The notes below the pieces were generated by a model that did not search any database, was not told where the DNA came from, and saw only the letters and a program-made list of their open reading frames with translations. Position numbers and translations under genes: made by a program. Below, piece after piece: positions 1 to 34,813 of a stretch of DNA of 64,000 nucleotides. The DNA is from Sphingobacteriaceae bacterium (GTDB lineage Bacteria; Bacteroidota; Bacteroidia; Sphingobacteriales; Sphingobacteriaceae): contig JACMJM010000057.1 of the NCBI GenBank assembly GCA_014380615.1, forward strand, positions 1 to 64,000, read 5' to 3'. Positions within the stretch are counted from its first letter, which is position 1; each line of letters starts with the position of its first letter.

Positions 1-77
1 ACCAGTTCTTCCAGGCTGGGTGGAAGCAATTGCAACTGATCGGAATCGTAGGGCTTAAAAACAGGCGTGGTTCCCAT
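1..77 (-). CDS. IS1182-family transposase, N-terminal fragment (runs off the window)
   Basis: Only the first 25 codons are present. The peptide starts MGTTPVFKPY and continues with a QLLPPSLEEL segment, which is how IS1182-type transposases of Bacteroidetes typically begin (a short leader, then LxPPSLEExI). The ATG is at 77-75 and no alternative start lies closer to the element end. The catalytic DDE region would be outside the window, so activity cannot be judged. Confidence 0.7.
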   Translation of the reverse strand, partial: MGTTPVFKPYDSDQLQLLPPSLEEL

Positions 78-112
78 GCCTTTAAAATACAAAAACCGCT
101 TGAAATAAAAAA

Positions 113-137
113 GAGGCTATCCTTTTGAGACAGCCTC
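113..137. terminator. Hairpin at the IS end, T-rich on both sides
   Basis: GAGGCT (113-118) pairs with AGCCTC (132-137) around a 13-nt loop. T tracts follow in both directions, so it could stop transcription entering or leaving the insertion sequence. The GAGACAGCCTC side is part of the IS terminal sequence. Confidence 0.55.
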
Positions 138-5760: not shown

Positions 5761-6310
5761 CAAGAAAACAAATGGTTGCTACGAAGTCAAGGCTTCGTCA
5801 ACTATACAAATACCGTAACTGTATTGAATAAAAGCGCTTTATTTAGGCATACAGCAATCCGACGCCCCAGTACAATTTATCCTACGGAGGCTGTGCCCTC
5901 CCGTAACCCTGAGTACTTCGTTAAGTTCAATACAGGCTCTTGCGAAGGGTCCTGAGGTTGTGTTTCAATAACCCGCTTTATGTTTCGACAGGCTCAACAT
6001 GACGCTACTTTTGTGCTTTAAACAATATTTGTCCATCATTCCACGTCATCCCTCTTGCAGTGTTTTTAGAGATTACCTTCTACTATGGGGGTGGCGGCCC
6101 GTTACCCTGAGTACTTCGTCAGGCTCAGCACAGGCTCTGTCGAAGGGTTACGGCGGGCTTCAATAAACCCGCTTATGCTTCAACAGCCTTAATATGGTGC
6201 TTACTGGGTGGCGTGTTATATTTGCGGTGCGCTGGCCGTCACCCTGAGCTTGTCGAAGGGTAGTGTGCAGGACAATTAGGATGGGTACTTCTGCGATATA
6301 ACCTGCCTAT
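5761..6310. repeat. Gene-free mosaic of dispersed palindromic repeats, left part
   Basis: I see no gene here. The stretch carries copies of the common Bacteroidetes palindrome CCCTGAGC-x-GTCGAAGGG in both orientations, at about 5905-5950, 6101-6157 and 6238-6262. Single half-sites such as TTCGACAGGCTCA lie between them (5984-5996). About 5964-6080 is the left copy of an imperfect direct repeat of about 115 bp, whose right copy is at 6719-6832. A segment near 5772-5800 (GTTGCTACGAAGTCAA) also occurs inside the MITE-like element at 34213. Confidence 0.75.
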
Positions 6311-6604
6311 CTACCTTTGACTTTTAAGCTTTTTATAATCCACACTAAGCTCCGGCAACTTCTCCCATTCTCGGTTTATTAATGCTTCCTTTTTCGCTCT
6401 GCGCCATCCTTTTATTTGCTTCTCGAACTCAATAGCGTGCGATGCAGTCTGGAAATGCTCGACAAAAACCAACTCCACAGGTCGCTTTTTAAATGTGTAG
6501 CACTTGACATGGAGGCCTGATTGGTGTTCAAAGAGACGCCTGTCTATATCGTTTGTTACACCCGTATAAATTACCTTTGTGATTTGCGCTATGTGTGGCT
6601 GTAA
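6311..6604 (-). pseudogene. GIY-YIG endonuclease remnant, 5' end lost
   Basis: The minus-strand frame closed by TAG at 6313-6311 translates to the C-terminal three quarters of a small single-domain GIY-YIG nuclease (UPF0213-like). It shows KVIYTGVTNDIDRRLFEHQ, then KCYTFKKRPVELVF and KQIKGWRRAKKEALI, ending KLKSQR. The first strand (GIY-like, normally MxxYYVYI) is missing: an in-frame TAA lies at 6607-6605 and the frame has no ATG, GTG or TTG start. Intact homologues are about 80-100 aa. Repeats on both sides suggest rearrangement or decay. Confidence 0.75.
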
Positions 6605-6988
6605 TTATATGCTTTTTCTAAAGTGTGGTGGGTTCATCCAGTTCAATGCTTCGACAGGTTACCTGTGACGTGTGTGCCGGCTGGTCATCCTGAGCCCGTC
6701 GAAGGGGCGTGATGCGGGCTTCAAAAACCCACTCTATGTTTCGACAGGCTCAACATGACGCTACTTTTGTGTCTTAAAACACTATTTGTCCATCATTCCC
6801 CGTCATCCCTCTTGCAGTGTTTAGAGGTTGCCTCTGCCTATATGACGTGTCTGGCGACGGGTCACCCTGAGCCCGTCGAAGGGTCGTGAGGTAGGCTTCA
6901 ATAACCTGCTCTAATGCTTCGACAGGCATGAATGCGACCTTTTGCGCCATAAATGTTTCCGACTTTAGAATACAGCCTCTTCCTTGCT
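6605..6988. repeat. Gene-free mosaic of dispersed palindromic repeats, right part
   Basis: This continues the repeat mosaic. CCTGAGCCCGTCGAAGGG-type palindromes lie at about 6683-6707 and 6860-6886, with half-sites (TTCGACAGG) at about 6650, 6740 and 6917. The block at about 6719-6832 closely repeats 5964-6080. A 72-codon frame here (6774-6992, minus) is only a translation of the repeats and is not accepted as a gene. Confidence 0.7.
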
Positions 6989-32209: not shown

Positions 32210-34213
32210 ATGAAATACAGAAAGATTTTACTTGCATCTTTAATTTGTTCGATTCTTTATTTCTCTCCAAGGAATATATTTTCGGATAATATCAAACAGG
32301 CTAATAAGTTTTATGAAACGTACGATTACAAGCTCGCGCTTGATATCTATCAAAAAATAATGCAGAAAAAGCCCAGCCTGGAGGTAGCCCAAAAAATCGC
32401 TAATTGTTACAGGTTTATTAACGACAGTAAAGGGGCAGAGGTAGCATACGCCAAAGTACTCACATTTCCGGGTGCCGACGCCATTAATTATAAGTACTAT
32501 GCCGACGCCCTTAAACAAAACGGAAAATTTGAGGAAGCGAAACAAAGTTATACCCTTTACGGTCAAAAACTTCCTTCGAAACTAGAAGAAGCTACCCGTT
32601 TGGCTAATACTACCGAAGTGGGCAGAATGTGGGCCGAAAATCCCGATCCGAATGTACGCATCGAAAATGTCAAGACATTAAATAGTGAAAATTCGGAGTT
32701 TTCTCCCGTGAAATATAAAAACGATATCGTTTTTACTTCCGACAGATGGTTCGTTCAAAGTTCGGACGATAAGAAAAAAGCCCCTGTATATGGCTGGACA
32801 GGCAATCCTTATTTAAAGATGTACCACGCCACTAAACAAGGCGAATCGTTTAAAGTAGCGTTAATGCCGACTTTAAATCAGGAATATCATACAGGGCCCG
32901 CAGCTTTTACCGCTACCGGCGATACGGTTTATTTTACGCTTACAGAAACACCTAAGGGAAAAAAGAAAAAAGCACCTTTTTTAACTAAGAAAATTTATAG
33001 TTCATCCGTTGCTGGCAGCACATGGTCGTCGCCAAAACCAATCGCTTTAAATAGTGACGGGTATTCCATCCAGCACCCTGCTTTATCTCCAAACGGGGCG
33101 ATACTCTATTTCGCATCCGATATGCCGGGAGGTTTGGGCGGAATGGATATTTACGCGTCGCAAAGACAGTCTGACGGTTCATGGGGCAGCCCGGTAAATT
33201 GCGGGTCGAACGTTAACACTACAGAAGACGATGTTTTCCCTGTTGTCCGTCAGGACGGAAGATTATATTTTTCATCAAAAGGACATGTGGGAATGGGCGG
33301 ACTTGATATTTTTACTTCGAAAGGAGCATACAACGAGTTCGAGCTGGCCGAAAATTTGAAGGCCCCTGTCAATTCTTCTAACGATGATTTCGGGATAAAT
33401 TTTACTGATGATTTAAACGGTTATTTATCGTCAAACCGTGCCGGCGGCCTTGGTTTAGATGATATTTATTCTTTCAAAATTGTGCCGCAGCAAAAACAGG
33501 GGCCTAACGCATCAAACGCTGCGTTGTTTTTCGCGGTCGATGGTGAAGTTTCAGACAAATCTACCGGGACGGTTTTAAGCAATGTGGAAGTTATTCTCTT
33601 AAATAAAAGTACTAATCAGCAGCAAAGCACCTTTTCCGATGTTCAGGGTAAATTCCATTTCGATCTTGCGCCAGAAACTGAATATGTAATTACCGGCAAT
33701 CAGGCTCAATATTATTCAAAACAGGAAGGAAGTATTACTACCATCGGGTTGAAAGAATCTACGGTGTTTAATGTAAAATTTGAGCTGGAACGGTCAAAGG
33801 ATACTTACATGGTTAAACTTCAGAATATTTATTACAACTTCGATAAATGGAGCATTCGCCCTGATGCGGCGGTTGAGTTGAATAAAGTAGCTTCGTTTAT
33901 GAGCAATATGCCGAATATTACCGTTGAGTTGCGTTCGCACACCGATTCGAGAGGTAAAGAAGTTTACAATAAATGGCTTTCACAAAAAAGAGCGCAATCT
34001 GCCGTTAATTATCTGGTTAAACAAGGCGTTGCTACGGCAAGGCTAACAGCCGTAGGTTTGGGAGAAACTGAGTTGCTTAATCGCTGCAGTAATGGTGTTA
34101 AATGTTCTCTTAAAGATCATCAGATGAACAGGCGGACGGAGTTTAAAGTAGTTAAGGTTAACCCTGTTGCCAGTATCACAACCTCATCCTCACCTTTAAG
34201 AAAGAAACAATAG
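32210..34213 (+). CDS. TPR/PD40/OmpA-domain outer-membrane protein (PorE-like)
   Basis: The 667-aa protein combines an N-terminal signal, TPR-like helices (about 25-125, LALDIYQKIMQKKPSLEVAQKIANCY) and WD40-like PD40 repeats (about 155-420, SPNGAILYFASDMPGGLGGMDIY and DGRLYFSSKGHVGMGGLDIF). A CarboxypepD_reg-like strand domain (about 440-530) follows, then an OmpA peptidoglycan-binding domain (about 540-650, NFDKWSIRPDAAVELNKV ... LRSHTDSRGKEVYNKWLSQKRA). The domain order matches PorE-type T9SS peptidoglycan anchors. It lies 15 bp after porP/sprF. The stop codon sits at the very edge of a MITE-like repeat. Confidence 0.88.
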   Translation: MKYRKILLASLICSILYFSPRNIFSDNIKQANKFYETYDYKLALDIYQKIMQKKPSLEVAQKIANCYRFINDSKGAEVAYAKVLTFPGADAINYKYYADALKQNGKFEEAKQSYTLYGQKLPSKLEEATRLANTTEVGRMWAENPDPNVRIENVKTLNSENSEFSPVKYKNDIVFTSDRWFVQSSDDKKKAPVYGWTGNPYLKMYHATKQGESFKVALMPTLNQEYHTGPAAFTATGDTVYFTLTETPKGKKKKAPFLTKKIYSSSVAGSTWSSPKPIALNSDGYSIQHPALSPNGAILYFASDMPGGLGGMDIYASQRQSDGSWGSPVNCGSNVNTTEDDVFPVVRQDGRLYFSSKGHVGMGGLDIFTSKGAYNEFELAENLKAPVNSSNDDFGINFTDDLNGYLSSNRAGGLGLDDIYSFKIVPQQKQGPNASNAALFFAVDGEVSDKSTGTVLSNVEVILLNKSTNQQQSTFSDVQGKFHFDLAPETEYVITGNQAQYYSKQEGSITTIGLKESTVFNVKFELERSKDTYMVKLQNIYYNFDKWSIRPDAAVELNKVASFMSNMPNITVELRSHTDSRGKEVYNKWLSQKRAQSAVNYLVKQGVATARLTAVGLGETELLNRCSNGVKCSLKDHQMNRRTEFKVVKVNPVASITTSSSPLRKKQ

Positions 34214-34339
34214 GCTGTCTCAAAAGTCGCTGTGGTCATCTTGAGCCTGTCGAAAGATTGTTGCTACGAAGTCAAAAGGCTTCGACAAGCTCAGCCTGAC
34301 GCCATGAATCTAAATGTTGACGACTTTTGAGACATCCTC
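34213..34339. mobile_element. MITE-like element with 17-bp inverted ends
   Basis: The left end GGCTGTCTCAAAAGTCG (34213-34229) and the right end CGACTTTTGAGACATCC (34321-34337) are inverted copies with one mismatch, enclosing about 90 bp with no coding potential. The right end extended to GAGG at 34339 matches the IS1182-type end at 137 (GAGGCTGTCTCAAAAG) at nearly every base. The interior holds half-sites of the genome's TCGAAG/CTTCGA palindromes. It fills the gap between the convergent ompA-type gene and bcp and probably also blocks read-through. Confidence 0.8.
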
Positions 34340-34348
34340 TTATAAATT

Positions 34349-34813
34349 TTATTTATTCAATAGGTCTATAACCTGTTGTGATGAAGCTGAAGTATCTACT
34401 TTCTCAATTATCTTCTTAATAACTCCCCCTTTCTCAATAATGAAGGTTTTTCGAGCTGTTCCCATATACTTTTTACCATACATGTTCTTCTCTATCCAAA
34501 CTCCATAAGCTTCAACAATACTTTTTTCAGTGTCGGAAATTAATGTAAAAGGGAGTTGGTATTTGTTTACGAACTTTTGATGCGATTTCTCATCGTCGGT
34601 ACTTACACCTATCACTGTAAAGCCTTGTTGTTGAAGTGATTGGTAATTGTCTCTGAAATCGCAGGCTTCGGCGGTGCAGCCCGGAGTATCATCTTTCGGG
34701 TAAAAATATAAGATTACATCTTTTCCGGTAAAGTCATCTAAAGCTACAGTATTACCGTTTTGATCTTTTGCTGTGAATTTTGGAGCAGCATCGCCCTCTT
34801 TTAGTTCTGACAT
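34349..34813 (-). CDS. bcp: Thioredoxin-dependent thiol peroxidase (Bcp/PrxQ)
   Basis: This peroxiredoxin of the Bcp family, 154 aa, has the two-cysteine active site in DDTPGCTAEACDFRD: peroxidatic Cys at about 46 and resolving Cys at about 51, on the same helix. The fold shows FTAKDQNGNTVALDDFTGKDVILYFYPKD at the start and GTARKTFIIEKGGVI near the end. It reduces hydroperoxides using thioredoxin in the cytoplasm. It is 3 bp downstream of the M23 peptidase gene and is likely the last gene of a minus-strand operon. Confidence 0.95.
   Translation of the reverse strand: MSELKEGDAAPKFTAKDQNGNTVALDDFTGKDVILYFYPKDDTPGCTAEACDFRDNYQSLQQQGFTVIGVSTDDEKSHQKFVNKYQLPFTLISDTEKSIVEAYGVWIEKNMYGKKYMGTARKTFIIEKGGVIKKIIEKVDTSASSQQVIDLLNK

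Follow-up and report, generated by a model that had tools for sequence, protein, structure and literature searches.

A MITE with IS1182-type ends between convergent genes of a Sphingobacteriaceae bacterium probably belongs to a stem-loop-replacing group of mobile elements

The staphylococcal insertion sequence IS1272, of the IS1182 family, moves by inverted-repeat- or stem-loop-replacing transposition without target duplication (PMC5678879), and TnSha1/IS1272 targets hairpins, several of which are transcriptional terminators by RNA-seq, with partial deletion of the hairpin (PMC4923244); stem-loop replacement as such is therefore not new. Compared with the available sections of the first report, the elements described here appear to share with IS1272 the transposase family, the absence of target duplication, the replacement of a hairpin target and a lack of primary-sequence specificity, and differ in that they occur in Bacteroidota rather than staphylococci, include MITEs and have inward terminator-like hairpins built into their ends. 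Hairpin targets are also common to TnSha1/IS1272, although TnSha1, as presented in the available text, is a gene-carrying transposon and not a MITE (PMC4923244). In the main text of these papers, as far as available, the terms MITE and terminator (PMC5678879) and the terms MITE, non-autonomous, restor and read-through (PMC4923244) are absent. Among bacterial MITEs, RUP, NEMIS and ERIC resemble the present element in being short, non-coding, strongly folding and located near genes and in carrying IS terminal repeats, but unlike them, judged by the sections available, it has no target duplication and appears to replace a hairpin rather than being added to a site (PMC3733652). The same source, in its available part, places CGTC-tagged REP palindromes in Bacteroidetes among other phyla (PMC3733652); the interior units of our MITE resemble this class, an assignment made by eye, and, unlike lone CGTC-tagged REPs, they form a pair flanked on both sides by IS1182 ends, together with which the pair recurs.

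The window, i.e. the whole 64,000-bp stretch of DNA analysed, holds both this MITE and, at its edge, one end of an IS1182-type insertion sequence (Table 1). The MITE lies between two convergent genes, one of the OmpA family, which we take to be the last gene of a T9SS cassette, and the other presumably peroxiredoxin-like, as named from its sequence. Inverted ends of 17 bp had been proposed from the letters and are real, with one mismatch and 91 bases between them. Aligned with its siblings, the element extends slightly beyond these ends, and all three bases of the OmpA-type TAG therefore fall within its positions 1 to 3, in agreement with the overlap of stop codon and element edge put forward by the sequence-only reading. 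The outer sequence GAGGxTGTCTCAAAAG, which that reading took to be common to MITE and IS, does match the IS end (122-137), but the left edge of the window copy is TAGG rather than GAGG; element position 1 is T here and mostly G in the sibling consensus. The MITE is non-coding and 16 of its terminal bases are common to the left end of the IS, and the 14-mer GGCTGTCTCAAAAG has five matches in the window at up to two mismatches versus 0.41 expected from shuffles.

Table 1. Coordinates of the features discussed, counted from the first base of the window
Feature	Position	Strand	Remark
Left end of IS1182-type insertion sequence and transposase gene start	1..137	-	from sequence
IS end read inward: 10-pair stem from terminal repeat, then TTTTTT	113..137	-	terminator-like against transcription from outside
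OmpA-family gene (PD40, carboxypeptidase-regulatory and OmpA domains)	32210..34213	+	TAG stop (34211-34213) in element edge
MITE	34211..34339	.	129 bp; bounds from sibling alignment; base 1 is the T of TAG, not G
Left terminal inverted repeat GGCTGTCTCAAAAGTCG	34213..34229	+	sequence comparison
Interior REP-like palindromes, two units in facing orientation	34236..34300	.	from sequence
REP-like core TGAGCCTGTCGAA	34242..34254	+	
REP-like core TGAGCTTGTCGAA	34281..34293	-	
Right terminal inverted repeat GGATGTCTCAAAAGTCG, read 34337-34321	34321..34337	-	sequence comparison
Convergent gene, peroxiredoxin-like	34349..34813	-	stop 9 bases from element

The window element is predicted to fold strongly as RNA (-47.7 kcal/mol on the plus strand and -53.8 kcal/mol on the minus strand, z -4.7 and -6.4), and its hairpin is followed by TTATAAATTTT, only moderately T-rich, on the plus strand and by TTGTTTCTTTC on the minus strand; a search of the window against Rfam returned no family. 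The interior REP-like doublet also stands alone, without IS-type ends, in other genera, where two candidates were scored per genome and counts are lower bounds. Palindromes of the same class form a cluster elsewhere in the window (5882-6913), which accounts for six of the eight matches to TGAGCYTGTCGAA found in the window at up to one mismatch (0.09 expected).

The IS1182-type label of the neighbouring element was borne out: GAGGCTGTCTCAAAAG, on the minus strand at 137-122, is the IS end, and an intact relative, the G112 transposase, passes the NCBIfam IS1182 model (NF033551; 469.9 bits against a cut-off of 270) and contains PF05598, PF13751 and PF01609, i.e. DUF772 together with DDE domains. 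The full IS carries matching ends (GAGGCTGTCTCAAAAG left and GAGGCCGTCTCATAAG right, 14 of 16 bases identical), and thus terminal repeats that are not different. A complete-length relative with both ends and a transposase, its reading frame interrupted, is present in G025 (Hufsiella ginkgonis), where the N-terminal transposase piece scores 253.4 bits, below the whole-protein cut-off of 270, the protein being truncated. A 41-residue peptide used as a probe for the IS proved to be an antisense frame of the transposase start and still located G025, with the transposase on the other strand; two DUF772 transposases of the own genome (contigs C44 and C67) were set aside, as no GRCTGTCTCAAAAG match lies near either. 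The own assembly contains 11 left IS ends and 13 right ends (the 13 contig ends with GAGGCCGTCTCATAAG), all at contig edges that hold just the first transposase codons, and the middle of the IS was not found in it. Over the part present the 11 left ends are 100% identical, which indicates that the IS insertions are young and, since MITE copies are only 81 to 94% identical to the window copy, that the MITE is older than the present IS burst. That the MITE is a non-autonomous element with IS ends is upheld by the shared ends and by the presence in the genome of the ends of an autonomous partner, whereas movement of the window copy by the present IS itself we can only infer.

Searched at the DNA level, the own genome (4.05 Mb in 68 contigs) yielded the further copies expected of a mobile element by the sequence-only reading: nine full or near-full copies on nine contigs, with 81 to 100% identity to the window copy (C7, the window, 100%; C57 94%; C44 91%; C22 86%; C26 85%; C60 84%; C59 82%; C66 and C46 81%), and shorter pieces. 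None of the nine has a direct repeat of at least 3 bases at its edges, and at eight of them a gene aimed at the element stops no more than 41 bases away. One of the nine, on C57 (L002), sits between divergent genes where no terminator is visible; in its left flank we recognised by eye an apparent TPP riboswitch leader, upstream of which the MITE lies. At the C22 copy (L004, 1460-1520) the upstream gene reads into the MITE and stops within its terminal repeat; with its final residues (RLS) and its stop codon thus provided by the MITE, the protein has apparently had its C-terminus rewritten by this insertion. In eight own copies (L004, L005, L006, L007, L008, L009, L012 and L014) one interior REP unit is swapped for a different hairpin module, TCCGCC-loop-GGCGGA with a variable loop and some decay and then the common TCAGCCTGACG, which we read as an exchange of modules within the MITE. 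At the site orthologous to L007 the related genome G011 (C1:1328876-1328939) has a shorter MITE-like relic, so that this insertion is probably older than the divergence of the two species; G011 also holds, among the matches listed, a MITE-like copy at 71% identity.

Empty sites in relatives were looked for in G011. Among the matches listed in the relatives search this genome alone belongs to the same genus, and no transposase related to the query was found in it at E ≤ 1e-10. Six left and right IS flank pairs map adjacent to each other in G011, including the copy at the window edge (C7 with C11), and at all six insertion points G011 has a hairpin resembling an intrinsic terminator. At the same six sites of the own genome the A-tract and T-tract are kept and the stem-loop is gone, for example TTACAACAAA-AAGGGGCTTATGCCCCTT-TTTCTGTTTAGG in G011 versus tttacaacaaa-IS-tttgtgtttagg. 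Stems were scored at ten sites, these six and four of the nine own MITE sites, against 60 shuffles each that keep base content only; the G011 stem exceeded the best shuffle at eight sites, tied with it at one (L004) and was within range at one (C26/C68), whereas the joined flanks of the own genome exceeded it at none of the ten. The remaining MITE sites were left out of the scoring for having a G011 match on the right side only (L006 and L008), no match (L009), a longer unrelated stretch in G011 (L002) or the MITE relic (L007). The own IS has 24 outward flanks, of which 22 have T as their first base and all 24 have T as their second. The two at the C4 and C60 ends (L033 and L134) agree outward over 16 bases (TTCTCGTATATGTAAA), further than any other own IS flanks do, and this agreement may be read as the residual stem of the target. 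Own MITE flanks appear to keep little of their targets because the own MITEs are old.

Beyond the own genome we collected 80 loci related to the IS, nearly all from Bacteroidota with two labelled otherwise, of which 67 have both ends and 55 usable flanks (13 without a recognisable end and 12 with too short a flank were dropped), and the GAGGCTGTCTCAAAAG end is conserved among them. Direct repeats of at least 4 bases occur at none of the 55, while the outward flanks match their own partner over a mean of 3.75 bases versus 1.92 (sd 0.17) when re-paired, a value reached in none of 2000 re-pairings, and T predominates at their start (88 of 110 flanks at position 1, 92 at position 2). In the 48 of 55 loci with ORFs of at least 70 aa on both sides, the IS lies between convergent genes in 25, tandem genes in 22 and divergent genes in one, with an inward-pointing stop codon within 30 bases in 30; neighbouring gene pairs with gaps of at least 30 in the same flanks are convergent in 15, tandem in 88 and divergent in 31 of 134 (Fisher p 3e-8 for convergent and 6e-4 for divergent). 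A hairpin at the IS end followed inward by a T-run is present at 50 of 55 left and 51 of 55 right ends versus 6.0 and 6.6 in shuffled sequence that keeps base content only. As nearly every end has this arrangement, the IS seems to be equipped with terminators that would stop transcription coming in from each side.

MITEs with these ends are not confined to the own genus. Two exact 12-base ends 60 to 120 apart were found in 8 of 399 family genomes, own included (15 places per strand in G104, nine in G112, two in G096 and one each in G018, G026, G323, G355 and own), and a reversed control pattern gave none among the matches listed for the 399. The 14 MITE loci studied in other genera fold as long hairpins and none has a target duplication of at least 3 bases; 13 of them have an inward-pointing stop within 35 bases, a count in which L287 and L291 are probably the same site in two species and the ORFs neighbouring L294 are doubtful. 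Interiors vary between genera while the ends stay constant: TGAGCYTGTCGAA units in own, G026 and G323, TGAGCGGAGTCGAA units in G112, G096 and G018, another palindrome class in G104 and none recognised in G355. An IS1182 transposase accompanies the MITEs intact in G112, as pieces in G018 and as weak matches in G096 and G026, and none related to the query was found at E ≤ 1e-10 in G104, G323 and G355, three of the seven other MITE genomes. In the left flank of one locus (L290) lies a repeat of roughly 110 bp, of which genomes of genus g18 contain dozens of diverged copies. Two G112 copies have an empty site kept in a relative. At L295 the swap is clean, with AATAAAAAAA-GGGCTTAAGCCC-TTTTTTTATTTC in G083 versus AATAAAAAAA-MITE-TTGTTTTATGTC in G112, and G018 and G096 have another hairpin at this site; at L293 a terminator-like hairpin in G083 corresponds to a G112 MITE lying inside an 11-base residual palindrome. 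We regard these pairs as the most direct evidence for MITE movement by stem-loop replacement.

We think it likely, and hold with some confidence, that the MITE is mobilised in trans by a stem-loop-replacing IS1182-family transposase and replaces its hairpin target without duplication. The transposase would recognise a hairpin-forming site, usually an intrinsic terminator behind a gene, remove the stem-loop and insert the element between the A-tract and T-tract left behind. The MITE would itself be one long hairpin, its terminal repeats closing over two mutually pairing REP-like palindromes, and a new hairpin would thus precede the old T-tract, where it would probably end transcription of one or both convergent genes. 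Conventional insertion into A/T-rich sequence or a terminator loop, with later decay of the redundant old stem, would give the T-rich outward flanks, and the divergence of the own MITEs leaves room for slow loss of a stem; yet the IS is young and the hairpin is nevertheless gone at six of six sites with both tracts intact, and a random A/T-rich target does not predict the match between partner flanks, so that we consider this account improbable. Still less credible is that the repeats are not mobile in this sense and form a terminator or REP-type family spread by RAYT transposition, the end repeats being a common terminator stem. Such a family would fit the REP-like doublet of the interior, found alone elsewhere, and the short terminators with GAGACAGCC stems in the own genome (C18 and C44), but whole 125-bp units recur with both ends, these ends have 16 bases in common with a multi-copy IS and are lacking from lone REP units, and interiors differ between genera while the ends stay.

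Returning to the window MITE and its probable origin by stem-loop replacement, the G011 counterpart of the gap has a strong hairpin of 13 pairs, which lies some 10 bases away from the stop of the peroxiredoxin-like gene, much as the MITE ends 9 bases from that stop in the window. On the OmpA side G011 has some 54 further unrelated bases and the pair is not a clean one, so that the site fits hairpin replacement but falls short of proof by itself. Recruitment of the element as a transcript end, proposed in the sequence-only reading, is plausible and gains a specific basis because elements of this group appear to replace terminator hairpins and not merely to land near genes. Transcripts would then end at the element, to judge by the T-runs more efficiently for the minus-strand gene (TTGTTTCTTTC) than on the OmpA side (TTATAAATTTT). 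A MITE of this group with no termination role at this site, transcript ends being set by processing or Rho, is the less probable case and an appreciable one: the plus-strand tail is moderate in T and a simple terminator scan (loops 3-8) lists none at the element, against which the element fills nearly the whole gap between the two convergent stops and is the only strong hairpin there.

Our literature searches, which covered few subscription papers and are a weak negative, had among the matches listed none on MITEs using this mechanism, on its occurrence in Bacteroidota or on restored termination; a search for IS1182 and MITE gave, among the titles listed, none on such MITEs, no passage among those listed from PMC3852290 connects IS1182 with a MITE, and searches with the REP sequences had no match. 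As far as these searches show, the use of the mechanism by MITEs, its breadth in Bacteroidota and the replacement of hairpin for hairpin, after which a terminator would still be in place, are new. On a wider proposal we are evenly divided, namely that the IS1182-type elements of Bacteroidota are mobile terminators, which swap hairpin for hairpin and hand termination back, the IS through terminators in both ends and the MITE via its own hairpin before the T-tract of the target. Insertions behind genes would therefore be nearly harmless and able to become the real 3' end, or even to supply a stop codon, and an insertion may repair the damage it causes. Because the enzyme would recognise hairpins, any REP-like palindrome pair gaining the 16-base ends would become mobile, which would explain the recurrence of MITEs with unrelated REP interiors in several genera.

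An unusual mode of transposition, known from a single IS of staphylococci, is extended by these observations to non-autonomous elements and to a large group within a second phylum. They suggest a route by which mobile DNA may rewrite the 3' ends of transcripts with the host unharmed, for which natural before-and-after pairs of terminator exchange are available, and which would also account for IS-end-like terminator hairpins in Bacteroidota genomes.
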